Assembly (NCBI RefSeq): GCF_008298015.1
Contig: NZ_VTPX01000005.1
Location: 62,001-126,000, forward strand
Source of the DNA: Salinicola corii
GTDB taxonomy: Bacteria; Pseudomonadota; Gammaproteobacteria; Pseudomonadales; Halomonadaceae
Reading direction: 5' to 3'
DNA length: 64,000 bases
Positions within the stretch are counted from its first letter, which is position 1, and the number at the start of each line of letters is the position of its first letter. Below, piece by piece: positions 39,798 through 57,899 of this stretch. The notes beneath the pieces are model-generated. The model searched no databases. It was not told the DNA's origin and saw only the letters and a list, made by a program, of their open reading frames with translations. A program made the translations under genes and the position numbers.

Positions 39798-40997
<1,200 letters not shown>

Positions 40998-41900: not shown

Positions 41901-42911
41901 ATGCCACGACGTCTCGAACCCTCCAGCTCCCTCTCGCTACGCCTGCCGCTTTCCCTGTTGGCCACGCTGCTACTCGGCTGCGGCCTCAGCGTTGCGGCAC
42001 AGGCCGCCGAGGAGTGCCCGCAGCGCGGGGATCTGGCGCCCATGTACTGCGATGCCGACGGCGACCTGGTCGCGGATGCGCCGAGCGACGAATCCCAACT
42101 CCTCGATCCCGATCCGCTGGTCTTCGCCTACACCCCGGTCGAGGATCCGGCGATCTACGCCGATATCTGGGAACCGTTCATCGAGCACCTCCGCGACGTG
42201 ACCGGCAAGGACGTGCGCTTCTACGCCGTGCAGTCCAACGCCGCCGAGATCGAAGCGATGCGCAGCGGGCGCATCCAGGTCGCGGGCTTCTCCACCGGGC
42301 CGACGCCATTCGCGGTCAATCTCGCCGGGGCGGTGCCGTTCGCGATCATGGGCAGCGACGATGGCGAGTTCGGCTACACCCTGCAGGTCTACACCCGCAA
42401 GGACAGCGGCATCGACGAGCTGAGCGACCTAAAGGGCAAGCGCGTCGCGCACACCTCGCCCACGTCCAACTCCGGCAACCTGGCGCCACGCGCCCTGTTC
42501 CCCGAGCAGGGCATCACCCCCGACGAGGACTACGAGGTGGTCTATTCGGGCTCTCACGATCAGTCGATGCTGGGCGTGGTCGCGGGTGACTATGACGCCG
42601 CGCCGGTCGCCTCCGAGGTGGTCGATCGCATGGCCGAACGCGGTCTCTACGACCCGGAAGAGGTCAAGATCGTGTTCGAATCCAAGCGTTTCCCCACCAC
42701 CTCCTATACCTACGCCTACAACCTCAAGCCCGAGCTGATCGACAAGATCAAGGAAGCCTTCTTCAGCTTCGACATGAAAGGTACCGAACTGGGCGAGGAG
42801 TTCGACGGCGTGACCAAGTTCGTCCCGGTGACATACCAGAAGGATTGGGAAGTGATTCGTGACATCCAGGATGCCAACGGCGTCGTCTACTCACAGGAAA
42901 ACATCGAATAG
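41901..42911 (+). CDS. phnD: Phosphate/phosphite/phosphonate ABC transporter binding protein
   Basis: A 336-residue periplasmic binding protein of the PhnD family. A signal peptide covers about residues 12-36 (LLLGCG could also be a lipobox). The mature N-terminus has an unusual acidic stretch with C39, C50 and D51-A-D53-G-D55-L-V-A-D59, resembling a calcium-binding loop. The binding domain follows from LVFAYTPVEDP, with VAGFSTGPTPF and SGSHDQSMLGV. The ribosome site is AGGAG. The ligand could be phosphonate, phosphite or phosphate. The last codons and stop are duplicated downstream in a 26-base tandem repeat. Confidence 0.9.
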   Translation: MPRRLEPSSSLSLRLPLSLLATLLLGCGLSVAAQAAEECPQRGDLAPMYCDADGDLVADAPSDESQLLDPDPLVFAYTPVEDPAIYADIWEPFIEHLRDVTGKDVRFYAVQSNAAEIEAMRSGRIQVAGFSTGPTPFAVNLAGAVPFAIMGSDDGEFGYTLQVYTRKDSGIDELSDLKGKRVAHTSPTSNSGNLAPRALFPEQGITPDEDYEVVYSGSHDQSMLGVVAGDYDAAPVASEVVDRMAERGLYDPEEVKIVFESKRFPTTSYTYAYNLKPELIDKIKEAFFSFDMKGTELGEEFDGVTKFVPVTYQKDWEVIRDIQDANGVVYSQENIE

Positions 42912-42942
42912 CCCGGTCACAGGAAAACATCGAATAGCCCGG
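42891..42942. repeat. 26-base perfect tandem duplication at the phnD stop
   Basis: Two identical 26-base units (42891-42916 and 42917-42942) lie head to tail, each containing the last phnD codons, TAG, and 7 following bases. The first copy's stop is used. This looks like recent slippage. Confidence 0.95.
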
Positions 42943-42979
42943 TTCGTGATTTAGCACGGTCATGCTGCAGAAAAACCGG

Positions 42980-43002
42980 ACGGCGCCGACACTCGGCGCC
43001 GT
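42980..43002 (+). terminator. Hairpin between phnD and phnC
   Basis: A perfect 10-base stem, ACGGCGCCGA with TCGGCGCCGT around CAC, is followed by TTTCTC. Such hairpins after binding-protein genes usually act as partial terminators or 3' stabilisers, giving more binding protein than membrane components. Confidence 0.7.
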
Positions 43003-43021
43003 TTCTCCACGAGGATCCCTC

Positions 43022-43819
43022 ATGCTGCGCATTCAGAATCTGGTCAAACGGTACGGCCATGGCGAGCCGGTGCTGCGCGGGCTCGATCTCGACGTTCCCG
43101 GCGAATCGGTGGTGTCGATCATTGGCGCCTCGGGAGCCGGCAAGAGCACCCTGCTGCGCTGCATCAACCGCCTGGTGGAACCCACGGGAGGCAGTATCGA
43201 GCTCAACGGCCTGGAGCTGACGTCTCTCAAACGCGAAGAGCTGCGCAAGGCGCGCCGGCGAATCGGGATGATCTTCCAGGGCTTCAACCTGGTGGACCGG
43301 CTGACGGTGATGGAGAACGTCCAGTGCGGGAGGCTGGGCTACATCCCCTACTGGCGGGCGGCGCTGCGCAAGTACCCGGCGGAAGACATCGAGCGCGCCT
43401 ATCACCTGATGGAGCGCGTCGGCATCGCCCACTACGCCAACAAGCGCGCCGATGCGCTCTCCGGCGGCGAGCGCCAGCGCGTCGGCGTGGTGCGTGCGTT
43501 GATGCAGCAACCGGAAATTCTGCTCGCCGACGAACCCACGGCCTCGCTGGACCCGGTCAGTTCGCGCCAGATCATGGAGCTGCTGCAGAATCTGTCCCGG
43601 GAGCTGTCGCTACCGGTACTGATCAATATCCACAACGTGGCCGAGGCACGGGAATACACCCAGCGCATCGTCGGCATGCGCTTCGGCAAGCTGATCTTCG
43701 ACGGCGTTCCCGCCGATCTGGATCAGGAAGCGATGGACGCCGTCTACAGCGGCACGCCGGGCGACGAGCGCCAACAAGCCGACGCTGGCCCGGCGCAGGC
43801 CAGGGCGGTGGTGTCATGA
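43022..43819 (+). CDS. phnC: Phosphonate-type ABC transporter ATP-binding protein
   Basis: A 265-residue ATPase with Walker A GASGAGKSTLLRC, Q-loop MIFQGFNLVDRL, signature LSGGERQR and Walker B ILLADEPTASLDP, matching PhnC. ATG 43022 has GAGGA at good spacing. An earlier in-frame ATG at 42962 would place the hairpin inside the gene and is rejected. The stop overlaps the next start as ATGA. Confidence 0.94.
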   Translation: MLRIQNLVKRYGHGEPVLRGLDLDVPGESVVSIIGASGAGKSTLLRCINRLVEPTGGSIELNGLELTSLKREELRKARRRIGMIFQGFNLVDRLTVMENVQCGRLGYIPYWRAALRKYPAEDIERAYHLMERVGIAHYANKRADALSGGERQRVGVVRALMQQPEILLADEPTASLDPVSSRQIMELLQNLSRELSLPVLINIHNVAEAREYTQRIVGMRFGKLIFDGVPADLDQEAMDAVYSGTPGDERQQADAGPAQARAVVS

Positions 43820-44634
43820 GCACGGGCACAGACCGGACAGCGCCTCCATCGCCACGACACTGGCGCAAGCCACCGTTCATCGCCAACCCGCTGCTGCGCT
43901 GGGGCCTGGTCGTCGGCGTCGCGATCTATGCCATCTGGGCGATCTCGATCCTGCCTTTCGATCTCGATCGCATCAGCCAGGGCATGACCCGAGCCGCACG
44001 CATCTTCTCCGGCGCCTTCCCGCCCAACTTCGACCGGTACGAACTGCTCATCGACGGCTTTCTCGAAAGCCTGCAGATCGCCATCCTGGCGACGCTTCTG
44101 GGTCTCGCGTTGAGCCTACCCATCGCGTTCATGGCGGCCCGCAACATCGCCGCCAGGCCGATCTACGTGATCGGGCGAGCGATCATCATTCTGGCGCGCA
44201 GTTTCCATCCGGTGATCGTGGCGATCCTGTTCGTCAAGGCCGTCGGTTTCGGTCCGGTGGCCGGCATCCTGACGCTGACGCTCTACTCGATCGGTTTCGT
44301 CGCCAAGATGCTGGCCGAACGGATCGAGGAGATCGACTGGGGTCAGGTGGAAGCGCTTCGGGCCAGCGGCACCCGCTATATCGGCGTGCTGCAGTTCGCC
44401 GTGCTGCCGCAGATCATGCCGCGCCAGATCGGCCTCGGCATCTATCAACTCGACAGCAACCTGCGGGCCTCGGCGGTGGTCGGCATCGTCGGCGCCGGCG
44501 GCATCGGCTCCACGCTGATGAACGCCTTCGGCCGCTACGACTACGACTTCGCGCTGGCGATCACGCTGGTGATCATCGGCGTGATTCTGGTCAGCGAAGC
44601 GATCAGCGGTCGGATCAGGAGGAACATCGGATGA
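43816..44634 (+). CDS. phnE: Phosphonate-type ABC transporter permease (first)
   Basis: A 272-residue permease with about six membrane segments. The PhnE motifs are SLPIAFMAARNIAARP, FVAKMLAERIEEIDWGQVEALRASG (the ATPase-contacting EAA loop) and VVGIVGAGGIG. The start overlaps phnC and the stop overlaps the second permease by 4 bases, so all three are translationally coupled. The frame is open upstream inside phnC, which is not meaningful. Confidence 0.93.
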   Translation: MSTGTDRTAPPSPRHWRKPPFIANPLLRWGLVVGVAIYAIWAISILPFDLDRISQGMTRAARIFSGAFPPNFDRYELLIDGFLESLQIAILATLLGLALSLPIAFMAARNIAARPIYVIGRAIIILARSFHPVIVAILFVKAVGFGPVAGILTLTLYSIGFVAKMLAERIEEIDWGQVEALRASGTRYIGVLQFAVLPQIMPRQIGLGIYQLDSNLRASAVVGIVGAGGIGSTLMNAFGRYDYDFALAITLVIIGVILVSEAISGRIRRNIG

Positions 44635-45431
44635 CGCAAACCGTTGCCGAGCGCGCCTGGGCGCGCTACACCCCGCAACAGCGCTGGAAGCGCTTCGCCA
44701 CGATGCTAGTGGTTGCCGCTGCCGTGGTGTGGGCGGTGGAGAGCATTGATATCATCTGGCCGTGGGTGTGGGATGCCCCGGCCCAGGTCGGCGACCTGTT
44801 CGGACGCATGGTGCCGCCGGACGTGAGCAATCTGCGAGCGATTCTGTGGGCACTGGTCGAGACGCTCAATATCGCCACGATCGCCACCTTCGTGGCCGTC
44901 TTCGTGTCGCTGCCGATCGCCTACATCGCGGCCCAGAACACGACACCCAACCGTTTCACCCTATGGCTGGGGCGCTTCATCCTGGTCTCGAGCCGGTCGG
45001 TCAACACGCTGATCTGGGCGCTGCTGTTCGTGGCGATCTTCGGTCCCGGCGTGCTGGCCGGCATCATCGCGATCATGTTCCGGTCGATCGGCTTTCTCGG
45101 CAAGCTGCTGGGCGAGGCGATCGAGGAGATCGACCGCCGCCCGGTGGAGGCGCTGGAAGCGACCGGCGCCTCGCGGGCCAAGGTGGTGCTCTACGCCATC
45201 GTGCCGCAGGTCATGCCGACCTTCTTCGCGGTCGGCATCCTGCGCTGGGACATCAACCTGCGCGAGTCGACGGTGCTCGGCTTGGTCGGCGCCGGCGGGA
45301 TCGGCGTGATCCTTCAGGGCGCCATCGACACGCTGGCGTGGCAGACCGTCGCCACCATCCTGCTGGCGATCATCGCCCTGGTCATCCTGGGCGAGGCACT
45401 GGCCGCCTGGCTGCGCAAGAAGGTCATCTGA
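44631..45431 (+). CDS. phnE: Phosphonate-type ABC transporter permease (second)
   Basis: A 266-residue permease paralogous to the preceding one. Its EAA-loop counterpart is LGEAIEEIDRRPVEALEATGAS, followed by TVLGLVGAGGIGVILQG. Two-permease PhnDCEE sets are common in phosphite and phosphonate importers. No C-P lyase, phosphite dehydrogenase or phosphonatase gene follows, so the imported compound cannot be named from this window. Confidence 0.93.
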   Translation: MTQTVAERAWARYTPQQRWKRFATMLVVAAAVVWAVESIDIIWPWVWDAPAQVGDLFGRMVPPDVSNLRAILWALVETLNIATIATFVAVFVSLPIAYIAAQNTTPNRFTLWLGRFILVSSRSVNTLIWALLFVAIFGPGVLAGIIAIMFRSIGFLGKLLGEAIEEIDRRPVEALEATGASRAKVVLYAIVPQVMPTFFAVGILRWDINLRESTVLGLVGAGGIGVILQGAIDTLAWQTVATILLAIIALVILGEALAAWLRKKVI

Positions 45432-45575: not shown

Positions 45576-46016
45576 ATGCCCACCCATACCCGCATTCGCA
45601 TGTTCAACACCAAAGAGACCTATCCCAATCAGTCGCTGGACAACGACCTGTGCCAGGCCGTACGGGCGGGCAATACGATCTACGTTCGCGGTCAGGTCGG
45701 CACCGACTTCGACGGCATTCTCGTCGGCCTGGGCGACCCTAGGGCCCAGGCAGAGCAGGCGATGAAGAACGTCAAGCAGTTACTGGAAGAGGCCGGCTCA
45801 GACCTCTCGCACATCGTCAAGACGACCACCTACCTTATCGATCCACGCTACCGTGAACCGGTCTATCAGGAGGTCGGCAAATGGCTGAAGGGCGTCTATC
45901 CGATCTCCACCGGGCTCGTGGTCTCGGCACTGGGACAGCCGCAGTGGCTGATGGAGATCGACGTCATCGCCGTCATCCCTGATGACACCGTTCCCTCTGA
46001 CATTTCAGCATTCTGA
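45576..46016 (+). CDS. RidA/YjgF family protein lacking the key arginine
   Basis: A 146-residue Rid-superfamily protein, full length from MPTHTRIRMFNTKETYPNQ. RidA proper hydrolyses reactive enamines and imines using an Arg (R105 in E. coli, in PARSCVEV). Here the matching stretch is YPISTGLVVSAL, with Ser111 at that position, so it belongs to the Rid groups without the Arg, whose reactions are largely unknown. It is the first gene of the accessory catabolic cluster, 31 bases before an ABC ATPase. The ATG at 45576 is chosen; the upstream frame from 45522 is possible but atypical. Confidence 0.88.
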   Translation: MPTHTRIRMFNTKETYPNQSLDNDLCQAVRAGNTIYVRGQVGTDFDGILVGLGDPRAQAEQAMKNVKQLLEEAGSDLSHIVKTTTYLIDPRYREPVYQEVGKWLKGVYPISTGLVVSALGQPQWLMEIDVIAVIPDDTVPSDISAF

Positions 46017-46047
46017 CCCTCCCACTTTCCAACAATCGGAGCTGCCC

Positions 46048-47208
46048 GTGGCGACCGTATCCCAGAGTCCACCTTCCGCCGCCCCGGCGTTCGCCGTCGG
46101 CTCGCCAGCCACCATACCCGAGCGTGTCGCGGTGCAACTCGACGGCATTCTCAAGCGCTTCGGCGATGCGATCGCGCTGCAGAGGATCTCACTGAAGATC
46201 CGCGAGGGTGAGTTCGTCACGCTTCTCGGCCCATCGGGCTGCGGCAAGACAACGCTCTTGAATCTCATGGCCGGCTTTCTCGAAGCCGACAATGGCGAGA
46301 TATTCATCGATAACCAACTGGTCACCGAGACTCCGCCCTACCAAAGGGAAATCGGCATCGTGTTCCAGAACTACGCGCTCTTCCCGCACATGAGCGTGGT
46401 CAAGAATGTCGGCTATGGGCTGCGCATGCGCGGCACGCCGAAGGCAGAGATCGATGAACGGGTCGCCCAGGCGCTGGCGCTGGTGAAGCTTGAGGGCTTC
46501 GGCGAGCGTATGCCACGCGAGCTCTCCGGCGGTCAACAGCAGCGAGTCGCCCTCGCCCGTGCACTGGTGATTCGACCCAAGGTGCTGCTGCTCGACGAAC
46601 CCTTCTCGGCGCTGGATAAGAACCTGCGCCTGTCGATGCAACTCGAGTTGAAGGAGATTCAGCGCAAGCTGGGCGTGACCACGGTCTTCGTCACCCACGA
46701 CCAGGGCGAAGCGTTGAGCATGAGCGACCGCGTGGTGGTGATGTCCGCCGGGCACGTGCGCCAGATCGGCACGCCGGATGCCATCTATCGCTCCCCGGAG
46801 GACCCGTTCGTGGCCGGTTTCGTCGGTGATGCCAACGTGCTCCCGGGGCGCTATCTGAGCCGTGACGACGCCGCCAATATCGAGCTGGGCGACGCCACGC
46901 TGCGCCTGCCCGCCGATCGCATTCATGCTTCGGTGGGCGCGCGTCTGGCGGTCTACGCTCGTCCCGAAAACATTCATCTGGTACCGCTGGACGGCGACAC
47001 GCTACTGACCGGCACGGTGGTCAACCACGTGTTCCAAGGCGATCACGTCGACGTTCACCTGGACGTGCCGTCACTGGATCAGGCGCGTCTGTTCGTACGC
47101 CGCTCGGGGGTCGAATCTCTGACTCGCTGGCCCGTGGGCGCGGTCGTCGGCCTGGCCTTCGAAGACGACGGCATCTGCGCCTTCGCCGCCGACGCGACGT
47201 CTGCTTGA
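46048..47208 (+). CDS. Polyamine-type ABC transporter ATP-binding protein (PotA-like)
   Basis: A 386-residue ATPase of the spermidine/putrescine (PotA) class. The ATPase domain has LGPSGCGKTTLLNLMAGF, VFQNYALFPHMSV, LSGGQQQR and LLLDEPFSALD, and a C-terminal TOBE domain begins near LPGRYLSRDDA. GTG 46048 is taken as start because CGGAG lies 8 bases upstream; the frame extends 22 residues further. Its binding protein and permeases are 4.7 kb downstream, at 51808-54595, so the transporter is split within the cluster. Confidence 0.9.
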   Translation: MATVSQSPPSAAPAFAVGSPATIPERVAVQLDGILKRFGDAIALQRISLKIREGEFVTLLGPSGCGKTTLLNLMAGFLEADNGEIFIDNQLVTETPPYQREIGIVFQNYALFPHMSVVKNVGYGLRMRGTPKAEIDERVAQALALVKLEGFGERMPRELSGGQQQRVALARALVIRPKVLLLDEPFSALDKNLRLSMQLELKEIQRKLGVTTVFVTHDQGEALSMSDRVVVMSAGHVRQIGTPDAIYRSPEDPFVAGFVGDANVLPGRYLSRDDAANIELGDATLRLPADRIHASVGARLAVYARPENIHLVPLDGDTLLTGTVVNHVFQGDHVDVHLDVPSLDQARLFVRRSGVESLTRWPVGAVVGLAFEDDGICAFAADATSA

Positions 47209-47257: not shown

Positions 47258-48262
47258 ATGCCTCTATCCGATACCATGCTGGCCGTGATCGCCCGCCAAC
47301 CGGGCGCCCCCAACGTTCTCGCCTGTGTACAGCGAGCGCTACCCACCGTGGGTCCAGGCGAGATCCTCATCCGTGTCGCAGCGGCCGGCGTGAACCGCTC
47401 GGACCTGATGCAGCGCAGCGGTGCGCCGCTACCGCCAGGCACCACCGACGTGCTGGGTCTGGAAGCCGCCGGCACCGTCGTTGCCGTGGGTGACGGCGTG
47501 ACCGACATCAGTGTCGGCGAACGCGTCATGGCACTGCTCGGCGGCGGCGGATACGCCGAATACTGCATGGCCGTCGCCGCTCACTGCCTGCCCGTGCCCA
47601 CCGGCCTCTCTCTGGAGGTCGCCGCGGGCGTTCCCGAAGCGGCCTTCACCGTTTGGCACAACCTGTTCGAGTGCGGGCGGCTGACGGCGGGCGAGACCGT
47701 CCTGATTCACGGCGCCGCCAGCGGCGTGGGAACCTTCGCCGTGCAGTGCGCTCATGCCGCCGGCGCCCGCGTGATCGCGACCGCAGGTGACGCGGTCAAG
47801 ATCGCCGCGTTGCAAAAGCTCGGCGTCTGGCGCGCCGTGGATCGCCACGAGGAAGATTTCGTCGATGTCATCGCTGACATGACCGAAGGCCGCGGCGTCG
47901 ACGTGGTACTGGACAACGTCGGCGGGCCCTACGTGGCCAGGAATCTGGCGGCCATGGCCCCGGGCGGGCGCCACGTCAGCCTGTCGTTTATACAGGGTCA
48001 GCACATTGAGCTGGATCTATCGGTGCTGATGCGCAAGGGCCTGAGCCTGACTTCCTCGACGCTTCGCCCCAAGAGCCATGAGGAGAAGTCGCGGATGGCC
48101 GCGGCCATCCGCCAGCATCTGCTGCCGTGGCTAGCATCGGGCGACGTGCGTCCATTGATTCACGCCGCGCTACCGCTAGCGCGAGCCGCCGAGGCTCATC
48201 GCTGCCTCGAAGCCAACGAGAACATCGGCAAGGTGCTGCTGGTCCCCGCCGGCGCCTATTGA
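47258..48262 (+). CDS. NAD(P)H quinone oxidoreductase, PIG3 family
   Basis: A 334-residue zinc-free medium-chain dehydrogenase/reductase of the quinone oxidoreductase type. It has the N-terminal GroES-like fold (AGVNRSDLMQRSGAPLPP), LGLEAAGTVVAVG and the Rossmann motif IHGAASGVGTFAVQ with the A-x-x-G-x-x-x pattern. Its hydride acceptor is unknown. In this cluster it may reduce a quinone or an enone intermediate. Confidence 0.9.
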   Translation: MPLSDTMLAVIARQPGAPNVLACVQRALPTVGPGEILIRVAAAGVNRSDLMQRSGAPLPPGTTDVLGLEAAGTVVAVGDGVTDISVGERVMALLGGGGYAEYCMAVAAHCLPVPTGLSLEVAAGVPEAAFTVWHNLFECGRLTAGETVLIHGAASGVGTFAVQCAHAAGARVIATAGDAVKIAALQKLGVWRAVDRHEEDFVDVIADMTEGRGVDVVLDNVGGPYVARNLAAMAPGGRHVSLSFIQGQHIELDLSVLMRKGLSLTSSTLRPKSHEEKSRMAAAIRQHLLPWLASGDVRPLIHAALPLARAAEAHRCLEANENIGKVLLVPAGAY

Positions 48263-48299: not shown

Positions 48300-48929
48300 A
48301 TGAGCGATTCGACTCGTTTCCTGTTGTACTACGCCTCGACTTCCGCCTTCGTGCGCAAGGTCATGATCAGCGCTCAGGTTCTTGGTCTGACCGATCGCAT
48401 CGAGCGACTCGACTCCGCCGCCCACCCGGTGGAGCGCGACGAGCGCATCGCCGCATTCAATCCGCTGGCCAAGGTCCCGGCGCTGCGCACCCCCGAGGGC
48501 ATATCGCTCTACGACAGCCGCGTCATCTGCGAATACCTGAACGCCTTCGCCGGCGGCTTGCTGTTCCCCGCTGAAAGCGATGCACGCTGGATCAGCCTGA
48601 CACGTCAGGCGCTGGGAGACGGCCTGATCGATGCCGCGTTGCTGGCGCGCTACGAATTCACGGCCCGCCCGGCGGCGGCTCAGTGGTCGCCCTGGGCCGA
48701 GGCACAGTTGACCAAGGTTCGCGCCGCACTGGCCGAGATCGACTCGCAGGCGCCCATCCTCAGCGACCAGCCAGACGACATCGGCGTGATCGCCATCGGA
48801 TGCGCCTTAGGCTATCTCGACTTCCGCTTCGCCGATCTCGACTGGCGACGCGACCATCCTCGCGCCGCGGCCTGGTTCGAGCGCTTGAGCCAGCACCCAG
48901 CCCTGCGCGCCACGCAGCCCTCGGCCTGA
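48300..48929 (+). CDS. Glutathione S-transferase family protein
   Basis: A 209-residue protein with the thioredoxin-like N-terminal domain (LYYASTSAFVRKVMISAQVLGL, with the likely glutathione-activating Ser in STSAF), FNPLAKVPALRTPEG and LYDSRVICEYLN, followed by the helical C-terminal domain. In catabolic clusters such proteins isomerise or detoxify reactive intermediates. It lies 37 bases after the quinone oxidoreductase gene and 15 bases before the dehydroquinase-like gene. Confidence 0.92.
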   Translation: MSDSTRFLLYYASTSAFVRKVMISAQVLGLTDRIERLDSAAHPVERDERIAAFNPLAKVPALRTPEGISLYDSRVICEYLNAFAGGLLFPAESDARWISLTRQALGDGLIDAALLARYEFTARPAAAQWSPWAEAQLTKVRAALAEIDSQAPILSDQPDDIGVIAIGCALGYLDFRFADLDWRRDHPRAAAWFERLSQHPALRATQPSA

Positions 48930-48944
48930 GATTCCGGAGCCCCC

Positions 48945-49391
48945 ATGCCCCATCGCGTCTACTTTCTCAACGGTCCCAATGCCAATCTCTATGGCCTCGA
49001 CAAGCACGGCACTTACGGCAGCGAGAGCTTCGCCAGCATAGAGCAGGGTTGCCAGCGCCACGCCGGCGCGCTCGAACTGACACTCGAGTTTCGCCAGAGC
49101 AACCACGAGGGCGTGCTGGTGGACTGGATTCAGGAAGCGCGTCATAGCGCCGATGCCATCATCATCAACGCGGCGGGGCTCACCTACAGTTCGGTACCGA
49201 TTCTCGACGCGCTGCTCGCTTTCGACGGCCCGATCATCGAAGTCCACATGAGCAACATCTGGCAGCGCGAAAGCTTTCGCCACCACTCCTACGTGTCGAA
49301 GGCAGCGACCGGCGTTGTCGCAGGCCTGGGCGCCACCGGCTATCGCCTGGCGCTGTCGGCCGTGGCGGAGCTGCTGGAGGACCGGGCATGA
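48945..49391 (+). CDS. Type II 3-dehydroquinate dehydratase-like protein with altered active site
   Basis: A 148-residue protein of the type II dehydroquinase (AroQ) fold. By eye it aligns without gaps to the Mycobacterium tuberculosis enzyme over the active-site region, and the numbering coincides. N12, the catalytic base Y24, N75, H101, R108 and R112 are kept. The essential lid arginine R19 is D19, the usual REP loop reads LDKHG, G77 is A77 and H81 is Y81. Dehydration of a different substrate, or another reaction on an enolisable acid, is more likely than the shikimate step. It overlaps the next gene by 4 bases and is embedded in the catabolic cluster. Confidence 0.88.
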   Translation: MPHRVYFLNGPNANLYGLDKHGTYGSESFASIEQGCQRHAGALELTLEFRQSNHEGVLVDWIQEARHSADAIIINAAGLTYSSVPILDALLAFDGPIIEVHMSNIWQRESFRHHSYVSKAATGVVAGLGATGYRLALSAVAELLEDRA

Positions 49392-50320
49392 CGCCGACGC
49401 TGGTGTTCTACAGCCAGTTCGACAGCTTCGAGGCGTGGCGCAATCTGCTCTCGCCGCTGCTGCCACAGGTACGAATCCGTCAGGCGGCAGACGTCGACGA
49501 CGCGGACAGCGTGCTCTATGCGCTGGCCTGGAAACCGCCTGAGGGTTTCTTCGCCCGCTACCGTAACCTGAAGCTGCTGGTGAACCTGGGCGCCGGCGTC
49601 GACTCGCTGGTCGGTCGCAACGACCTGCCGGCCATTCCAATTACCCGCGTCTCCGACCCCGACATGGGGCGGATGATGGCAAGCTATGTGCTCTTCGCCG
49701 TCCTCCGCTACGCCCGCGACATCCCCGCCTTCGAACGCGCCCAGCGCGAGCGACGCTGGCACTATCTGCACCCCCGGCTGCCGGATAGTATCCGCGTCGG
49801 CGTGCTAGGACTCGGTGAGCTGGGCGCCTGCGCCGCGCAGGAGCTGGTCCGTCAGGGATTCGATGTCCGCGGCTGGTCGCGCTCGCCCAAACGGCTGGAA
49901 GGTGTGACCTGCGTCGATGGCATGTCACGGCTCGACGACTTTATCGGCGCGAGCGATATCCTGGTCACGATGCTGCCGCTAACGCCCGAGACCCGTGGGC
50001 TTCTAAGTGCCAAGCGCCTGGCGCTGCTACCTCCGGGGGCCTGCTTCATCAACGTTTCCCGAGGCGCGATCGTCGACCAGCGGGCACTGACCGAGGCTCT
50101 AACCAGCCGGCGCATCGCCGAGGCCACGCTGGATGTGTTCGACCGTGAGCCGCTGCCGCCGGAAGATCCCTTGTGGCAACTGGACAACGTGCTAATCACG
50201 CCGCACCTCGCCTCGGTGGCCATTCCCGAGTCCGCCGCGCGCCAAATCGCCGACAATATCGGCCGTCTCGAGCGCGGCGAAGCCGTGTGGCATCAGGTGA
50301 ATCCGGCTCGCGGCTACTAG
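49388..50320 (+). CDS. D-2-hydroxyacid dehydrogenase (glyoxylate/hydroxypyruvate reductase A-like)
   Basis: A 310-residue NAD(P)-dependent hydroxyacid dehydrogenase with LGLGELGACAAQELVRQG as Rossmann motif, INVSRGAIVDQRAL, and DVFDREPLPPEDPLW before ITPHLASV with the catalytic His. It is paralogous to the gene at 8907 but clearly diverged. The start overlaps the dehydroquinase-like gene by 4 bases, so the two act together, perhaps on successive hydroxyacid intermediates. Confidence 0.92.
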   Translation: MTPTLVFYSQFDSFEAWRNLLSPLLPQVRIRQAADVDDADSVLYALAWKPPEGFFARYRNLKLLVNLGAGVDSLVGRNDLPAIPITRVSDPDMGRMMASYVLFAVLRYARDIPAFERAQRERRWHYLHPRLPDSIRVGVLGLGELGACAAQELVRQGFDVRGWSRSPKRLEGVTCVDGMSRLDDFIGASDILVTMLPLTPETRGLLSAKRLALLPPGACFINVSRGAIVDQRALTEALTSRRIAEATLDVFDREPLPPEDPLWQLDNVLITPHLASVAIPESAARQIADNIGRLERGEAVWHQVNPARGY

Positions 50321-50430: not shown

Positions 50431-51405
50431 TCAGCCGATATCCTCGATCGCACGGACCGAATGCGGGTCGAAGAAGCTCGGCGCCGCCATACCGGGAATG
50501 TACTGGTCGGACACAAACATCCGGCAGCGCTCGGCGAAGGCGCTGACCACGCGCGACAGCTGCGCGTTCCTGGCGACAGCGTAGCCCAACTGCATGGGCC
50601 GGTGCTCGCCGGCCAACCTCACTCGAATCAGACGCTTGCCGTCCAGTGACAGATTGGCCTTGGGACGCACGTTGGCGATGCTGTAGCCGACGCCGTTGGC
50701 GACCATCGCCCGTACCACCTCGAGATTGCTCGACCGCATCACGATGTTCGGCGTGACGCCGGCAGGCAGGAACAGACTGAGGAAGTATTCCCGGCTCCAC
50801 GGCATGTCCAGCAGGACCATGGGGTGGGTTTCCAGATCGTCCATCGTCACCGCCGACAGATTCGCGAACGGGTGATGCTCTCCCACCATCACGTAGGGCG
50901 GCAGCCGGGCCAGCGGCTGGAAGTCGATATCGTCGTTCGACACCAGATCGTAGGTCAGGGCAATGTCGATCTCCGCGCTTCGCAGCTTGGCCAATAGCTG
51001 CTCGTAGTCGCCCTCGAACTGACTGATGCGAACCCCTGGAAACGCCCGCCCGAAACCGAATACCAGCTCGGGCGTGATCATCGGTGCCAGCGAGCCGAAG
51101 CAGCCGACGCGCAGGGGCCCCCGAATGGTGTTCAGCGACTCCGAGGCGATGGTGTAGAGGTTGCTCACCTGGTCGAGAATCAGCTTCGCCTCTTTCATCA
51201 CCTCGCGACCAATCGCCGTGAGCGAGACCCCCTGGGCGTGATGCCGCACGAAGAGTTGAACCCCCAGCTCGGACTCGATATGGCTGATCGCGGCCGAGAT
51301 CGAGGGCGAGGAGACATGCAAGCGCTCGGACGCGCCATGCAGACTGCCTGCCTCGCCGGAGGCGACGAAGTATTCGAGTTGGCGTTGTGTGATTCGACTG
51401 AGCAT
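50431..51405 (-). CDS. LysR family transcriptional regulator of the catabolic cluster
   Basis: A 324-residue LysR regulator. The HTH is RQLEYFVASGEAGSLHGASERLHVSSPSISAAISHIE and the effector domain starts near GPLRVGCFGSLAPMITPEL. The ATG at 51405 fits the family, while the frame to 51525 does not. It lies inside the cluster, convergent with the hydroxyacid dehydrogenase and divergent from the binding-protein gene, and is the likely pathway regulator. A 9-1-9 palindrome at 51663 is a candidate site. Confidence 0.92.
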   Translation of the reverse strand: MLSRITQRQLEYFVASGEAGSLHGASERLHVSSPSISAAISHIESELGVQLFVRHHAQGVSLTAIGREVMKEAKLILDQVSNLYTIASESLNTIRGPLRVGCFGSLAPMITPELVFGFGRAFPGVRISQFEGDYEQLLAKLRSAEIDIALTYDLVSNDDIDFQPLARLPPYVMVGEHHPFANLSAVTMDDLETHPMVLLDMPWSREYFLSLFLPAGVTPNIVMRSSNLEVVRAMVANGVGYSIANVRPKANLSLDGKRLIRVRLAGEHRPMQLGYAVARNAQLSRVVSAFAERCRMFVSDQYIPGMAAPSFFDPHSVRAIEDIG

Positions 51406-51807
51406 GGCGGGTTCTCGATACGAAGATAGCGCTTTCGAAGCGACGATGGCGAGTTCGCAAGACGGCGCATGCAGCAGTGGCCGCGGCGTTTGACCACGAG
51501 CGTCCCGCCTCTCGGCCTCGATCATACGACAGCGTGTCTCGATGCGTCAGTGCCTGCACAGGCGCCGGCGATGCCCACGAGCCTGGCGCCGCCCCGCGCC
51601 ATGCTGCATCGGAAATTCCTACGCAAGGCAACGGCAAAGGCTGTTTTACCGATCCCGCCGCGCGAGGCCATGATGGCCTCGAACGGTGAACGGCTGATCG
51701 CCATGTCTCAAGTGACCGCGTCGTATTCCGTCGACGTTCACGCGACACGACGGCATCACGAGCTGCCCGACACCACGCCTTTCGACCATCGAACGAGAGC
51801 TAAAACA
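51406..51807. other. 402-base intergenic region between LysR and binding-protein genes
   Basis: No convincing gene is present, although one frame stays open. The region is unusually long for a divergent LysR promoter. It contains the palindrome at 51663-51681 and must hold the binding-protein promoter. No terminator, repeat family or RNA gene was recognised. Confidence 0.5.
51663..51681. promoter_or_regulatory. 9-1-9 palindrome, candidate operator
   Basis: CGAGGCCAT-G-ATGGCCTCG is a perfect inverted repeat 127 bases upstream of the binding-protein start. It may bind the divergent LysR regulator, but its GC-rich core is not a typical T-N11-A site. Confidence 0.35.
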
Positions 51808-52833
51808 ATGCATAAAGCCATCGCTCTGACCCTGCTGAGTGCCAGCCTGATGGGCATCTCAAGTGCGAACGCTGCCGACAAGTTGATCGTCAGCACCTGG
51901 GGCGGCAGTTTCCGCGATCTCATCGACGAGGCCATCGGCCAGGAGTTCACCCGACAGACCGGCGTCGAGGTCGAATACGTGACCGGCGGCACCATCGACC
52001 GTCTCAACAAGGCCAAGCTGGCTGGCAGTGCCGAAACCGATATCACCTTTACCACGTCCCACGTGGGTTGGCTCTACGCCAACGACGGCCTGTTTGAGGA
52101 CCTGGACATGGGCAAGATCCCCAATGCCAAGAATCTCGTGCATCAGGCCAAGCTGAGCCCGAATCACATCGGCGTGTGGGGCTACGTCTACACCATCGGC
52201 TATCGCCCGGACTTGGTGCCGGACGACATCACTTTCGACAGTTGGGAAGACCTGTGGAATCCCGAGCTCGAGGGCACCATCGCACTACCCGACTGGGATC
52301 CGAGCCATATCATCGCTGTGGCTGCCAAGCTCGAAGGTGCCGACGCCGAGCACTGGGAGGCCGGCCAGGACAAACTCAAGGCGCTCATTCCCAATATCAA
52401 GGCGTTCTATACCAACGACGCCAACAGCCAGCAGTTGATCGCCACCGGGGAGACGCCAGTACAGCTGCTGCTGTCGATGAACGCCTACCACATGATGGAC
52501 GAAGGCGTGGACATCGAACTGGCGATGCCAAAGGAAGGCGCCGTGCTTGGCATCGATGCCATGGGCATCAACAAGGGCAGCGAACACGCCGATCTGGCCT
52601 ACCAGTTCATGAACATCGCACTGTCGCCGGACGTCCAGGCGAAAATCGCCGAGATCAACAACGGCAGTCCGGTCGTGACCAATGCGGCAGTCGACCCGGA
52701 AATCGCCAAACTGCCGGGCATGCTGACGACGGCCGAGCAGTGGGACGCCACGCTGGACACCGATCCCAAGCTGCGGGCCGAGATGACCGCCGAATGGCGC
52801 AAGTGGTTCTCGGAAAACATCATGACGCATTGA
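51808..52833 (+). CDS. Polyamine-type ABC transporter substrate-binding protein (PotD-like)
   Basis: A 341-residue periplasmic binding protein of extracellular solute-binding family 1, PotD/PotF-like. A signal peptide (KAIALTLLSASLMGISSANA) is followed by DKLIVSTWGGSFRDLIDEA and the family segments FDSWEDLWNPELEG and AMGINKGSEHADLAYQFMN. The frame is open to 51469 but the ATG at 51808 begins the signal peptide. Ligands of this group range from polyamines to opines and other small cationic or organic-acid compounds. It works with the permeases that follow and probably with the ATPase at 46048. Confidence 0.9.
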   Translation: MHKAIALTLLSASLMGISSANAADKLIVSTWGGSFRDLIDEAIGQEFTRQTGVEVEYVTGGTIDRLNKAKLAGSAETDITFTTSHVGWLYANDGLFEDLDMGKIPNAKNLVHQAKLSPNHIGVWGYVYTIGYRPDLVPDDITFDSWEDLWNPELEGTIALPDWDPSHIIAVAAKLEGADAEHWEAGQDKLKALIPNIKAFYTNDANSQQLIATGETPVQLLLSMNAYHMMDEGVDIELAMPKEGAVLGIDAMGINKGSEHADLAYQFMNIALSPDVQAKIAEINNGSPVVTNAAVDPEIAKLPGMLTTAEQWDATLDTDPKLRAEMTAEWRKWFSENIMTH

Positions 52834-52920
52834 TCATTGTGACTCCAAAGGCTCAAGACCCGGCCGCCGAGGCTCTCCCCCGGTGGTCGTTTCTCCCGAC
52901 CGTGCTCGATGGAAAGCCCC

Positions 52921-53775
52921 ATGACTCGTAGACCTGCCTTCGTCGGTTGGTTCCTGCTGCCGGCGATACTCACCGCACTCGGCCTGACGATCGCCATGCT
53001 GACCGTGCTTCAGTACAGCGTGCGCGCGTACATTCCAGGCTCGCTGGACGTAGGCGGCTTCACGCTCGACAACTTTCAGGACCTGATGAAGGGCCTCTAC
53101 GCACGCGCCTTTCTCAACACTGTGTGGCTGAGTTTCAAGACAGCGCTGTTCGGGCTGATGCTGAGCTACCCACTGGCCTATACGCTGGTACGCACACGCA
53201 CCGCATGGTTGAAGTCGTGCATCCTGATCATCGCCATCACGCCGCTGTTCCTCGGCGAGGTGGTGCGGACGTACTCTTGGATCATCGTGCTTGGCAACAG
53301 CGGCTTCCTCAATAGCCTGCTGCTGGCCATCGGGCTGATCGACAAACCGCTGCAACTGATGTTCACCAACACCGGCGTGGTACTGGCGCTGGTCCACGTC
53401 ACCATGCCGATCATGGTACTCATGCTGGCGACCGGCCTGTCGCACATCGACATCGCCTACGAAAAGGCCGCCACCAGCCTGGGCGCAAGCCCCTTCAGAG
53501 CCTTCCTGACCATCACGCTGCCGCTGTCGCTACCGGGTGTCGTCGCCAGCGTGACGACCGCCTTCGCCTGGACGTTCAGCGCCTTCGCCACACCGCAGCT
53601 GATCGGTGGCGGACGCGTGAGTACCGTCGCCACGCTGGTCTACCAGTTGGGCTTTTCGTCGCTGAACTTCCCCTTCGCCGCCGCCCTGAGCATGGCCGGC
53701 CTAGCGATGACGGTAGTGCTGCTGGCCGCGCTCAAGCGTATGACCCGACCGCTGCAGAACGTAGGGATCCACTGA
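52921..53775 (+). CDS. Polyamine-type ABC transporter permease (PotB-like)
   Basis: A 284-residue permease with six predicted membrane helices (FVGWFLLPAILTALGLTIAML first). The EAA loop is YEKAATSLGASPFRAFLTITLPLSLPG. ATG 52921 has GGAAAG just upstream; an ATG 4 codons earlier (52909) is possible. It ends 1 base before the second permease start. Confidence 0.91.
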   Translation: MTRRPAFVGWFLLPAILTALGLTIAMLTVLQYSVRAYIPGSLDVGGFTLDNFQDLMKGLYARAFLNTVWLSFKTALFGLMLSYPLAYTLVRTRTAWLKSCILIIAITPLFLGEVVRTYSWIIVLGNSGFLNSLLLAIGLIDKPLQLMFTNTGVVLALVHVTMPIMVLMLATGLSHIDIAYEKAATSLGASPFRAFLTITLPLSLPGVVASVTTAFAWTFSAFATPQLIGGGRVSTVATLVYQLGFSSLNFPFAAALSMAGLAMTVVLLAALKRMTRPLQNVGIH

Positions 53776-53776
53776 A

Positions 53777-54595
53777 ATGACTCGCTCGACCCGTGATCGA
53801 TGGCTGGGCTACGCCGGACGCCTCCTGGTGGCCCTGATCCTGCTCTTCGTGCTGCTGCCGACGGTGGTGGTAGTCATCTCCTCGTTCAGCAGCACCTCGG
53901 TGCTCTTCTTCCCGCCCAAGGGCTGGTCGCTGCGCTGGTTCGAACGCGCCGTGAGCTACGACGACTTCAGAAGCGGTTTCTACTCGGGGCTGATCGTCAC
54001 CGCCTGGGCCTCGACGCTCGCCGTGTTCATCGGCACGACCCTGGCAATCGTCATCCACCGCTACACATTCCGCTTCAAGGCCGTGCTGGAAGGCATCCTG
54101 CTGTCGCCGCTATTCATCCCCCATTTCACTATCGGTCTCGGCCTGCTGATGCTGGTGGCACAGTTGAATCTGGGACGCGGCTACGCGCTGGTGATCTTCT
54201 GCCATGTCGTGCTCGTGCTGCCGTTCGTGCTGCGCAGTCTGTACGTTTCGCTTCAAAACCTGGGCCAGCGGGTCGAGATGGCGGCGGCCAGCCTCGGTGC
54301 CTCGCCACTGCGGGTGGTGTGGACCATCACGGTTCCGCTGATGCTGCCAGGCCTGTTCGGCGGGTGGCTGTTCGCCGCGATTCTCTCGTTCAACGAATTC
54401 ACCGCGTCACTGTTCATCACGACCCAACGCACCCAGACGCTGCCGGTGGCGATGTACAACTACGTTCGCGAGTTCGCTGACCCGACGCTGGCCGCACTGT
54501 CGGTGATCTACATCGTGATCACGGCCACTCTGCTCACCCTGGCCAACCGTTTTCTCGGTCTGGGCCGGATTCTCAACGTCGACGCACCGCGCTGA
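53777..54595 (+). CDS. Polyamine-type ABC transporter permease (PotC-like)
   Basis: A 272-residue permease. The N-terminal helix RLLVALILLFVLLPTVVVVI is followed by the PotC-typical FPPKGWSLRWFERAV, and the EAA loop is RVEMAAASLGASPLRVVWTITVPLMLPG. It forms the heterodimeric channel with the preceding gene. DUF1028 follows 38 bases later, suggesting transport and catabolic genes share one transcript. Confidence 0.92.
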   Translation: MTRSTRDRWLGYAGRLLVALILLFVLLPTVVVVISSFSSTSVLFFPPKGWSLRWFERAVSYDDFRSGFYSGLIVTAWASTLAVFIGTTLAIVIHRYTFRFKAVLEGILLSPLFIPHFTIGLGLLMLVAQLNLGRGYALVIFCHVVLVLPFVLRSLYVSLQNLGQRVEMAAASLGASPLRVVWTITVPLMLPGLFGGWLFAAILSFNEFTASLFITTQRTQTLPVAMYNYVREFADPTLAALSVIYIVITATLLTLANRFLGLGRILNVDAPR

Positions 54596-54633: not shown

Positions 54634-55308
54634 ATGACCTTTTCCATCACGGGGCGTTGCGCCGAGACCGGGCAGATGGGGATCGCCATCAGTTCCTCGA
54701 GTATCGCCGTGGGGGCCCGATGTCCCTGGCTGCGTCCCGGTATCGGGGCGGTCTCCACCCAGAACGTGACGCTACCCGCACTCGGCGAGCGAGTGCTGGC
54801 GTGTCTGGCCGAGGGCGCGTCCCCGGCGCAGGCACGGGACATGGCGCTGGCCACAGATGCCCATTGCCAATATCGGCAATTAGCGGTGCTCGACGCACAA
54901 GGCCGCACCGCCCACTTCAGCGGCGACGAGACGCTGGGCTGCCACCACGCCGTAGCAGGCGAGCAGTGCGTCGGTGCCGGCAATCTGCTGGCCAGCCGTG
55001 ACGTGATCGAGGCACTGGTGCGAGCGTTCGAGACCCACCGAGGCCCGCTGGCCGACCGTTTGATCGCGGCGATGCAGGCGGCAATGACCGCCGGCGGTGA
55101 AGCCGGGCCGGTACATTCGGCGGCGCTGCTGGTGGTCGGGGAACCGAGCTGGCCGATCGTCGATTTGCGCGTGGACTGGGCGGATGAGGCGCCGATCGAG
55201 CAGTTGGCGACGCTCTGGGCAGACTATCGGCCTCAGATGCAGGACTACCTCACCCGCGCGTTCGATCCGACCCAGGCGCCCAGCTACGGCGTCCCGGGCA
55301 ACGAATGA
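54634..55308 (+). CDS. DUF1028 domain protein
   Basis: A 224-residue protein of the DUF1028 family, which has an Ntn-hydrolase-like fold and no settled reaction. Typical features are FSITGRCAETGQMGIAISSSS at the N-terminus, GVGAVSTQN-like GIGAVSTQNVT, and GNLLASRDVIEALVRAFE. The ribosome site AGGAG lies 10 bases upstream. Genes of this family often occur beside Rid proteins, amidases and ABC importers in catabolic operons, and the same company is seen here. An amide or imine hydrolysis role is a guess from fold and context. Confidence 0.9.
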   Translation: MTFSITGRCAETGQMGIAISSSSIAVGARCPWLRPGIGAVSTQNVTLPALGERVLACLAEGASPAQARDMALATDAHCQYRQLAVLDAQGRTAHFSGDETLGCHHAVAGEQCVGAGNLLASRDVIEALVRAFETHRGPLADRLIAAMQAAMTAGGEAGPVHSAALLVVGEPSWPIVDLRVDWADEAPIEQLATLWADYRPQMQDYLTRAFDPTQAPSYGVPGNE

Positions 55309-55482: not shown

Positions 55483-56733
55483 ATGACAGTCGAGAGAATC
55501 AACACGCTGGTGGTCGGTGCCGGCCAAGCAGGCATCGCCATGAGCGAGCACCTATCGCTCATGAACATTCCCCATATCGTGCTCGAGCGCGCCCGCATCG
55601 CCGAGCGCTGGCGTTCCGAGCGATGGGATTCCCTGGTGGCCAACGGACCCGCCTGGCACGACCGTTTTCCGACGCTCGCGTTCGAGGGCGTTTCACCCGA
55701 CGCCTTTCCGCCGAAGGAGCGCATGGCCGACTATTTCGAAACCTACGCGGAGATGCTGAAGGCCCCGGTTCGCAACGGGATCGAGGTGCAACGGGTGGAG
55801 CGCCTGACGGGGCGACGCGGGTTCCGGGTCGAGACTTCCGAGGGCGAATACGAGGCGGACAACGTGGTTGCGGCGACCGGCCCCTTCCAGAAGCCGACCT
55901 TCCCTCGCATCATTCCAGAGACGGCCGACGTGCAGCAGTTGCACTCCTCGGCGTACAAGAATCCCGATCAGTTACCCGACGGTGGCGTGCTGGTCGTCGG
56001 CGCGGGCGCGTCCGGTTCGCAGATCGCTGAGGAGCTGCGCCAAGCGGGCCGGCGGGTCTATCTGTCGGTGGGCGAGCATTATCGGCCGCCGCGCGCGTAT
56101 CGTGGGCGCGACTACTGCTGGTGGCTGGGTGCCTTGGGTCTGTGGGACGAAGTTCGTATCCGCCCGAAAAAAGCGCATGTCGCCTTCGCGGTCAGCGGTT
56201 ACGAAGGCGGCCGGACCGTGGACTTCCGCCGGCTCGCCCACGCTGGCATCACGCTGGTAGGCCTGACCCGTGCCTGGGAGGCGGGGCGCTTGCGCTTCGA
56301 CGAGGGTCTGGCGGAGAACATCGCTCAAGGCGACCAGGCCTACTTCGACGTGCTGCGCGAAGCCGATGCGTATATCGCGCAGAATGGTCTGGATTTCCCA
56401 CTGGAGCCAGAGGCCTGGGAACTCCTGCCCGATCCCGACTGCCTCACGTCCCCGATCCTCGAACTCGACCTGAAAGCCGAAGGCATCACCACCGTGCTAT
56501 GGGCTACCGGTTTCCAATTCGACTTCGGCTGGCTGCAGGTCAACGCCTTCGACGACGCAGGGTTGCCGTTCCACAAGCGCGGCATCTCCGCCGAGAGCGG
56601 TATCTATTTTCTGGGCCTGCCCAATCTGGTCAATCGGGCCTCGTCGTTCATCTACGGGGTCTGGCACGACGCCAAGTACATTGCCGACCATATCGCGCTG
56701 CAGAATGCCTACATGGCTTACGAACGCGCTTGA
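55483..56733 (+). CDS. Flavin-dependent monooxygenase (FMO/Baeyer-Villiger-like)
   Basis: A 416-residue class B type flavoprotein. The FAD motif is VVGAGQAGIAMSEHL at residue 9, the NADP motif is LVVGAGASGSQIAEEL near residue 170, and between them LHSSAYKNPD resembles the FMO linker motif. The segment WDSLVANGPAWHDRFP is typical of bacterial YUCCA-like monooxygenases. It could N-hydroxylate an amine or insert oxygen next to a carbonyl; the substrate is unknown. The hydroxyacid oxidase gene follows by 23 bases. Confidence 0.9.
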   Translation: MTVERINTLVVGAGQAGIAMSEHLSLMNIPHIVLERARIAERWRSERWDSLVANGPAWHDRFPTLAFEGVSPDAFPPKERMADYFETYAEMLKAPVRNGIEVQRVERLTGRRGFRVETSEGEYEADNVVAATGPFQKPTFPRIIPETADVQQLHSSAYKNPDQLPDGGVLVVGAGASGSQIAEELRQAGRRVYLSVGEHYRPPRAYRGRDYCWWLGALGLWDEVRIRPKKAHVAFAVSGYEGGRTVDFRRLAHAGITLVGLTRAWEAGRLRFDEGLAENIAQGDQAYFDVLREADAYIAQNGLDFPLEPEAWELLPDPDCLTSPILELDLKAEGITTVLWATGFQFDFGWLQVNAFDDAGLPFHKRGISAESGIYFLGLPNLVNRASSFIYGVWHDAKYIADHIALQNAYMAYERA

Positions 56734-56756: not shown

Positions 56757-57899
56757 ATGAGTCACGTCACCTGCATCGAAGATCTGCGCCGTCTGGCACG
56801 CAAACGCGTGCCGAGGATGTTCTACGACTACGTCGATGGCGGCTCGTGGACCGAGTCAACCTATCGCGCCAACGAGCGCGACCTCCAGCGCCTCGAGTTC
56901 CGTCAACGCGTGGCCTGCGACATCGCCCACCGCAGTCTGGACTCCACGATGGCGGGGCAATCCGTCTCCATGCCAGTGGCCATCGCCCCCACCGGGCTGA
57001 CGGGAATGCAGCGCGCCGATGGTGAGATCCTCGCGGCGCGGGCGGCAAAACACGCTGGCATCCCGTTCACGCTGTCAACGATGAGTATCTGCTCGATCGA
57101 GGCCGTGTCCGACGCCACCGGAGACCATCCGTTCTGGTTTCAGCTCTACGTCACGCGTGATCGTCGATTCAGCGAGGCGCTGATCGAGCGCGCCCGTGCC
57201 GCTCGCTGTTCGGCGTTGATGGTCACCATGGATCTCCAGGTCTTCGGTCGACGGCACAAGGACCACAAGAACGGTCTCTCGGTGCCGCCACGACTCACGC
57301 CGAAACATCTTCTCGACCTCGCGTGCAAACCGCGCTGGTGCCTGGGCATGCTCGGCACACGACACCGCCAATTCGGCAATATCGTCGGCCACGCCCACGG
57401 CGTCGACGACATTCAATCACTGGTGGCGTGGACGCAGGAGCAGTTCGACCCCGCCTTGTCTTGGACGGACGTGGAGTGGATCAAAAAGCGCTGGGGCGGT
57501 CCGTTGATCGTCAAGGGCATCCAGCACCCCGACGATGCCCGTTTGGCGGTGGAAAGCGGCGCCGACGCCGTAGTAGTCTCCAACCATGGCGGTCGGCAAC
57601 TGGACGGCGCGGCATCGTCCATCACCACGTTGCCGGAGATCGTCGAGGCGGTGGGCGCGACAACGGAGATTCATTTCGACAGCGGGATACGTTCTGGCCA
57701 GGACGCGCTCAGGGCGTTGGCGCTCGGCGCGCGAGGCGTCTACATCGGCCGCGCCATGCTCTATGGACTCGGCGCTCTTGGTGAGGAGGGCGTAACTCGG
57801 GCACTGACCATCCTTCACGATGAGCTGGACCTCTCAATGGCGTTCTGTGGTCACACGGATATCCGGGATGTGAACCGGGAAATTCTGCGGAGGCGGTGA
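56757..57899 (+). CDS. FMN-dependent alpha-hydroxyacid oxidase/dehydrogenase (LldD family)
   Basis: A 380-residue flavoprotein that oxidises an L-2-hydroxyacid to the 2-keto acid, like lactate dehydrogenase LldD and glycolate oxidase. Motifs include MFYDYVDGGSWTESTY, IAPTGLTGMQRADGE, QLYVTRDR, LIVKGIQHPDDA, the active-site VSNHGGRQLDGA with catalytic His and Arg, and FDSGIRSGQDALRALALGA. It is the last gene of the accessory cluster. Together with the D-specific dehydrogenase at 49388 it implies that both stereoisomers of a hydroxyacid pass through the pathway. Confidence 0.93.
   Translation: MSHVTCIEDLRRLARKRVPRMFYDYVDGGSWTESTYRANERDLQRLEFRQRVACDIAHRSLDSTMAGQSVSMPVAIAPTGLTGMQRADGEILAARAAKHAGIPFTLSTMSICSIEAVSDATGDHPFWFQLYVTRDRRFSEALIERARAARCSALMVTMDLQVFGRRHKDHKNGLSVPPRLTPKHLLDLACKPRWCLGMLGTRHRQFGNIVGHAHGVDDIQSLVAWTQEQFDPALSWTDVEWIKKRWGGPLIVKGIQHPDDARLAVESGADAVVVSNHGGRQLDGAASSITTLPEIVEAVGATTEIHFDSGIRSGQDALRALALGARGVYIGRAMLYGLGALGEEGVTRALTILHDELDLSMAFCGHTDIRDVNREILRRR

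Follow-up and report, generated by a model that had tools for sequence, protein, structure and literature searches.

An Asp19/Tyr81 subfamily of type II dehydroquinase homologs, encoded in a catabolic-looking operon and probably distinct in function from biosynthetic AroQ

Type II 3-dehydroquinate dehydratase (AroQ; TIGR01088, PF01220; 1d0i, 1h05) has been studied thoroughly, is a drug target and is usually credited with one reaction. QuiB and AroQ2 are catabolic dehydroquinases of quinate use. Two further systems bear on the genes considered here: the Rut pyrimidine pathway (RutA-F) and the MSMEG_0569 family flavoprotein (TIGR04046), which we take to be linked to the Nit1C cluster. What, then, is a dehydroquinase homolog without the arginine of the active-site lid doing among catabolic genes? 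We analyzed a 64,000-nucleotide stretch of the Salinicola corii genome (the window) that encodes such a protein at 48945..49391 (+). We call this type II dehydroquinase homolog, which carries Asp19 and Tyr81, AroQL. From its clade, the Asp19/Tyr81 pair, the presence of a separate aroQ and a conserved gene set, we conclude that AroQL is a neofunctionalized enzyme of a catabolic-looking pathway. We put at roughly 0.72 the probability that it has a different function in a catabolic operon and is not a biosynthetic 3-dehydroquinate dehydratase.

AroQL resembles AroQ in family, length and numbering. The reading frame at 48945-49391 is intact and codes for 148 aa, of which residues 5-140 match PF01220 (dehydroquinase class II) with 169.5 bits (cut-off 23.3, E=4.2e-50). 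In a phmmer search, residues 6-142 match residues 6-142 of the chain in the 1h05 group, which we take to be the M. tuberculosis enzyme; the numbering of the two proteins therefore coincides, as a sequence-only reading of this DNA had concluded by eye from a gapless alignment. Solved structures contributed 39 distinct sequences matched at E<=0.001, 38 of which bear dehydroquinase or dehydroquinate dehydratase/hydratase names, the other being named I3-A6. AlphaFold2, given 39 aligned rows (37 AroQL, one paralog and one canonical), returned a model with a pLDDT of 91.4 and a pTM of 0.89; residues 11-30 score lower, near 85. From its sequence, AroQL is predicted to have the type II dehydroquinase fold.

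Active-site residues were compared in an alignment of 144 rows, comprising the window, 87 rows with Asp19 and Tyr81, and 56 canonical rows with Arg19. The classes were defined by residues 19 and 81 themselves, yet each row fell into one of them and there were no intermediates. Setting aside two copies of the window (L002, L113) and a divergent paralog (L127) leaves 84 AroQL relatives, 80 from individual loci (the best 80 of 187) and four from an even sample of the phylum. Residue 19 is Asp in the window and in 84/84 relatives and Arg in 56/56 canonical rows, while residue 81 is Tyr in 84/84 relatives and His in 55/56 canonical rows, the last having Phe. Residues 19-21 read DKH in the window, where canonical rows mostly have REP or RQP. 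The loss of the lid arginine, the altered REP loop and the His-to-Tyr change had all been called from the window alone, and the changes at 19 and 81 extend to the relatives; no shifted loop hides an arginine, Asp19 itself being aligned at the position. Because Asp19 and Tyr81 recur in 84/84 close homologs, they are more than chance. Replacement of Gly77 by Ala had also been proposed as a rebuilt feature and is rejected as an AroQL signature: Ala is present in 84/84 relatives, but canonical rows too have Ala (38/56) more often than Gly (18/56).

Further residues are fixed or nearly fixed in AroQL and seldom found in canonical rows, namely F7, A13, Y16, S28, F29, G78, L79 and M102, together with L18 (81/84) and I97 (82/84), and position 106 is Trp in 79/84 relatives where 46/56 canonical rows have His. 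The main catalytic residues are shared with AroQ. N12, Y24, N75, D88, E99, H101, S103, R108 and R112 are invariant in 84/84 relatives, which bears out the earlier observation that N12, Y24, N75, H101, R108 and R112 are retained. Among them, we assume that N75 and S103 lie near the substrate carboxylate and that E99-H101 is the acid/base pair that protonates the leaving hydroxyl; His81 of the canonical enzyme is presumably a ring-hydroxyl contact. The E99-H101 pair and Tyr24 are kept in 84/84 relatives, and from its conservation Tyr24 is presumably still the base in AroQL. In an excerpt of a review (PMC7144000), the Arg19 equivalent is given as essential in the S. coelicolor enzyme, where it seems to lower the pKa of the Tyr24 equivalent.

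Within the type II dehydroquinase family, AroQL makes up a subfamily of its own. A tree was built from 86 rows: 29 AroQL (the window plus one third of the 84 relatives), the L127 paralog and all 56 canonical rows. In it AroQL forms one clade with support of 99/84, or 99/97 together with L127, which sits on a long branch. When 17 signature columns were removed, in a 51-row tree (22 AroQL, the paralog and 28 canonical) built under a simpler model, AroQL still occupied one side of a branch at a lower support of 95/79, just below the starred level, and the paralog separated from it. By class, 41 of the 80 loci (best 80 of 187) are alphaproteobacterial, 34 gammaproteobacterial and five betaproteobacterial. 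Matches at E<=1e-40 turned up in 79 of 398 genomes sampled evenly from the phylum; five places are 67-100% identical, the Salinicola genome included, and the others at most 58%. Thirty loci were fetched from this sample, and the signature was found in those five and in the more distant L127 (52%). A divergent paralog, 51% identical, with the motif NGANTNLYGLD and Gln99, lies at L151:9847-10299, also near HpaB, HpaC, Rid, DUF1028 and glutathione S-transferase (GST) genes.

The AroQL gene shares its last 4 bases with the gene of a GhrA-type D-2-hydroxyacid dehydrogenase (49388..50320, +; best solved matches 4xa8 and 5vg6), an overlap noticed in the sequence-only reading. Upstream of AroQL on the same strand are genes for a Rid/L-PSP family protein (45576..46016, +) that has Ser where RidA has its aligned Arg, a PotA-type ABC ATPase (45982..47208, +; start codon uncertain), a member of the PIG3-type NAD(P)H quinone oxidoreductase family (47258..48262, +; start uncertain; TIGR02824, 408.1 bits against 296.8) and a GST family protein (48300..48929, +). 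Downstream of GhrA, a LysR-type regulator (50431..51405, -; start picked by codon scoring) is followed by a PotD-type periplasmic binding protein of an ABC importer (51781..52833, +; start uncertain), a PotB-type permease (52909..53775, +), a permease named PotC by position (53777..54595, +; PF00528) and a DUF1028 protein (54634..55308, +; PF06267). Next come an FMO-like flavoprotein, presumed to be a monooxygenase (55483..56733, +), whose closest NCBIfam model is TIGR04046 at 361.5 bits, below the cut-off of 498.35, and an LldD-type FMN-dependent 2-hydroxy-acid dehydrogenase/oxidase (56757..57899, +), which is found in 16/80 loci and has an ortholog in L003. The M20/ArgE-like family is absent from the operon of the window and has a 64% relative on another contig of the same genome. 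Directly upstream of the operon is a phosphonate-type ABC transporter (41901-45431; the ATPase passes TIGR02315), all four genes of which were matched only in L003 among the 80 loci (best 80 of 187); a gene for a ZigA zinc metallochaperone GTPase (39801-40997) also lies upstream.

How well is this neighborhood conserved? Neighbors were sought up to 10 kb on each side in the 80 loci (best 80 of 187; six are under 19 kb), first with a codon-scoring gene caller and clustering and then, since the caller missed some genes such as GhrA of L074, with tblastn at 42% identity and 60% coverage; a gene counts as present when it lies in the stretch, whether or not it shares a transcript with the others. 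By tblastn, Rid is found in 74 loci, GhrA in 69, DUF1028 in 68, PotA in 66, the PotD-type protein in 64, PotB and PotC in 63 each, FMO-like in 54, ArgE-like in 51, LysR in 49, PIG3 in 48, GST in 47, HpaB in 22 and HpaC in 17. The gene caller gave slightly lower counts for GhrA (68), DUF1028 (66), PIG3 (46) and PotB (62) and a higher one for HpaC (20), while LysR reached 74/80 by loose clustering against 49/80 at >=42% identity. GhrA comes immediately after AroQL in 65 of the 77 cases considered (76 loci plus the window; L004, L025, L052 and L067, with shifted coordinates, were left out) and overlaps it by 4 bases in 52 of these 65; by tblastn GhrA is absent from 11/80 loci. The two oxygenase types exclude each other: 54 loci have FMO only, 22 HpaB only, none both and four neither (L025, L044, L045 and L046, of which L025 and L044 are short). 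PIG3 accompanies FMO in 47/54 loci and HpaB in 0/22, and GST in 45/54 and 1/22, respectively. Exceptions outside the 80 are L155 and L159, with HpaB, PIG3 and GST, and L151, with HpaB and GST. Some AroQL loci have a TRAP transporter in addition to or in place of the ABC importer.

The same gene set, with annotated names, is carried by plasmids of Rhizobium, K. pneumoniae and E. coli. Of 200 plasmid records that match the 13.3-kb E. coli plasmid operon at all, 108 cover at least 80% of it, and 103 of the 200 are from Klebsiella; among 5426 complete E. coli genomes two match, one of them over only 1% of the query. The 60 plasmid records listed, out of 201, give AroQL the name 3-dehydroquinate dehydratase. 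The whole set lies on a conjugative K. pneumoniae plasmid (L143, pKP02022) and a mobilizable E. coli plasmid (L145), with VapBC-type and transposase genes close by.

Part of the gene set also occurs without AroQL. Of forty further stretches, selected for a match to DUF1028, Rid or an AroQL-type protein or for being the canonical locus, 14 (L163, L164, L167, L179, L181-L184, L186, L188-L190, L192 and L194) hold FMO, Rid, DUF1028 and ArgE-like genes with no AroQL in the stretch. Some of these cores lie near NCS1-type permeases, others near amino-acid ABC genes with PhyH and class II aldolase, or near omega-aminotransferase and methylmalonate-semialdehyde dehydrogenase genes. Several DUF1028 stretches lack any core partner (e.g., L161, L162, L165, L166, L185 and L187). 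Since the core is also found alone, AroQL is an accessory with no certain place in the pathway; together with GhrA it resembles an extension by which the FMO-Rid-DUF1028-ArgE core would be fed or drained. The Salinicola genome has a second FMO-Rid-DUF1028 set outside the window, at about G000:C26:164-167 kb (L160). Its FMO is 62% identical to that of the window; PhyH, class II aldolase and amino-acid ABC genes accompany it, and the stretch lacks AroQL. As a working analogy only, the Rut pathway likewise combines a flavin monooxygenase and flavin reductase with a Rid protein and a hydrolase, and the HpaC-like partner scores best to RutF, although its 124.9 bits fall below the cut-off of 254.75. 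The monooxygenase families differ, however, DUF1028 and ArgE-like proteins belong to the set described here, and AroQL and GhrA are without Rut counterparts.

The Rid protein of the window is 81-98% identical to those of most gammaproteobacterial loci and 48-67% identical to the others. At the position that we take to align with the active-site Arg of RidA, the Rid proteins have Ser (60/75) or Cys (15/75) and thus lack the arginine of an imine hydrolase. Excerpts of one paper state that RidA needs this conserved Arg as an imine hydrolase and that about 10% of RidA proteins have Ser in its place (PMC4433059). The absence of the arginine weakens the role proposed for Rid below.

What might the pathway do? 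A nitrogen-containing organic acid would be taken up by the PotD-type ABC importer. The FMO-like enzyme would oxygenate it, a step that HpaB/HpaC would carry out in other genomes, and nitrogen or acyl groups would then be stripped off by Rid, DUF1028 and the ArgE-like hydrolase. GhrA and AroQL would act in succession: GhrA would convert a 2-oxo acid into a 2-hydroxy acid or the reverse, and from this 2-hydroxy acid, made or used by GhrA, AroQL would eliminate water by type II chemistry. The carboxylate would sit near N75/S103, E99-H101 would protonate the leaving hydroxyl, and Tyr24 would take a proton from the neighboring CH2, which a carbonyl, imine or heteroaromatic carbon would make acidic. 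Without Arg19 and His81, contacts made by the lid and to ring hydroxyls would be lost, and an amine or iminium group on the new substrate may form a pair with Asp19. Where present, PIG3 and GST might reduce or isomerize the unsaturated acid.

Dehydration of a 2-hydroxy acid is the simplest reading, given the overlapping 2-hydroxyacid dehydrogenase gene and the retained carboxylate, proton-transfer and hydroxyl residues, but we advance this step for AroQL tentatively, at rather less than even odds. The GhrA-AroQL-PIG3/GST chain is not obligatory, as GhrA is missing from some loci and PIG3 and GST from nearly all HpaB loci, and the chain must differ between organisms. The NCS1-type permeases beside AroQL-free cores hint at an N-heterocyclic substrate; one, scanned with Pfam, has PF02133, and the two scanned score well short of the ncs1 and cytX cut-offs. 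The substrates considered were pyrrole-2-carboxylate, imidazole or pyrimidine derivatives, homarine, kynurenine-like 2-amino-4-oxo acids and mycosporine-like compounds, and none finds support in these data.

The same fold could instead catalyze another reaction, acting on an enol or keto acid as a reverse hydratase, a tautomerase or a C-C lyase. The Asp19/Tyr81 swap changes two substrate-pocket residues, whose roles we partly assume, and an optional isomerizing step would fit a core module that also exists without AroQL; the presumed carboxylate and acid/base residues of dehydration are nevertheless invariant in 84/84 relatives, and we regard this alternative as unlikely. Rather less likely still is an amine lyase in which Asp19 binds a cationic amine and NH3 or an amine, not water, is eliminated. 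Charge reversal at position 19 in every relative and importers of the polyamine or amino-acid type are in keeping with such a lyase, but AroQL has the leaving-group residues of the dehydratase and some loci use a TRAP transporter as well or instead.

Could AroQL be a working 3-dehydroquinate dehydratase with an altered lid, serving quinate-like catabolism? Since the main catalytic residues are all kept, activity on 3-dehydroquinate may persist, and Tyr24, N75, H101 and R112 are among them. The family models are divided. AroQL scores 158.1 bits against the TIGR01088 equivalog for type II 3-dehydroquinate dehydratase, below its cut-off of 169.85, but exceeds the cut-offs of NF003806 (187.5 against 171 bits), a model of the kind 'subfamily' and not equivalog, and of its sisters NF003807 (168.9 against 130) and NF003805 (159.7 against 146); all three bear the name 3-dehydroquinate dehydratase, which counts against a new function. 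Compared by description only, AroQL is like QuiB and AroQ2 in being a second AroQ homolog in a catabolic setting. It differs from them in its neighbors: quinate/shikimate dehydrogenase and dehydroshikimate dehydratase are absent from the recurrent neighbors typed with Pfam/NCBIfam and from three annotated records. Arg19, essential in S. coelicolor according to the review excerpt cited above (PMC7144000), is moreover replaced in 84/84 relatives.

The same genomes also hold other dehydroquinases. In the Salinicola genome a second, canonical aroQ, whose absence would have counted against the sequence-only reading, lies at G000:C11:676302-676712 beside accB and accC, with 191.8 bits to PF01220 (AroQL, 169) and a REP loop; a search of this genome for the type I enzyme AroD found none. 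Chorismate synthase is on another contig, so that the description of a catabolic cluster far from aro genes holds for the two genes placed, this one and the canonical aroQ. Exactly one PF01220 match was found in 131/146 genomes of a search among relatives that included the Salinicola genome itself, and a second copy is therefore uncommon in the Salinicola lineage. From the 80 loci, 44 AroQL genomes were tested, and 42 of them contain another PF01220 place of at least 184.6 bits, judged by score and unaligned; the other two have AroD, one with only PF01220 fragments besides AroQL (G897) and one with AroQL alone (G896). AroD was searched in five genomes, and the one without it (G895) has a 200.9-bit PF01220 place. 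A quinate-type dehydratase is accordingly improbable. That AroQL is a catalytically dead structural or regulatory partner, as loss of an arginine reported essential (PMC7144000, in excerpt) might suggest, is hardly credible with Y24, N75, E99, H101, S103, R108 and R112 invariant in 84/84 relatives.

The reading of AroQL as an enzyme with a new substrate or reaction thus rests on several lines: Arg19 and His81 are replaced in every relative aligned, AroQL has its own clade, the genome encodes a canonical enzyme besides, and quinate/shikimate genes are absent from the recurrent neighbors typed in the conserved, catabolic-looking operon. A new substrate, proposed from the window alone, is well supported by these lines, though the Gly77 argument offered for it was wrong. 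We consider it somewhat better than an even bet that this Asp19/Tyr81 pocket enzyme belongs to an undescribed, horizontally mobile pathway for a nitrogen compound, in which the unrelated FMO-like and HpaB/HpaC flavin monooxygenases are interchangeable and the Rid (Ser/Cys)-DUF1028-ArgE core is reusable. Among the open-access PMC titles and abstract openings listed, we found no description of the operon; 'DUF1028' alone gives nothing there, so the absence says little.

AroQL constitutes a whole subfamily without the lid arginine, in a catabolic-looking operon common to Alpha-, Beta- and Gammaproteobacteria and present on K. pneumoniae plasmids. Once its substrate is identified, many annotations would be corrected, the functions of DUF1028 and of the odd Rid group would become easier to establish, and it would be seen how the active site of a type II dehydroquinase was re-tuned.
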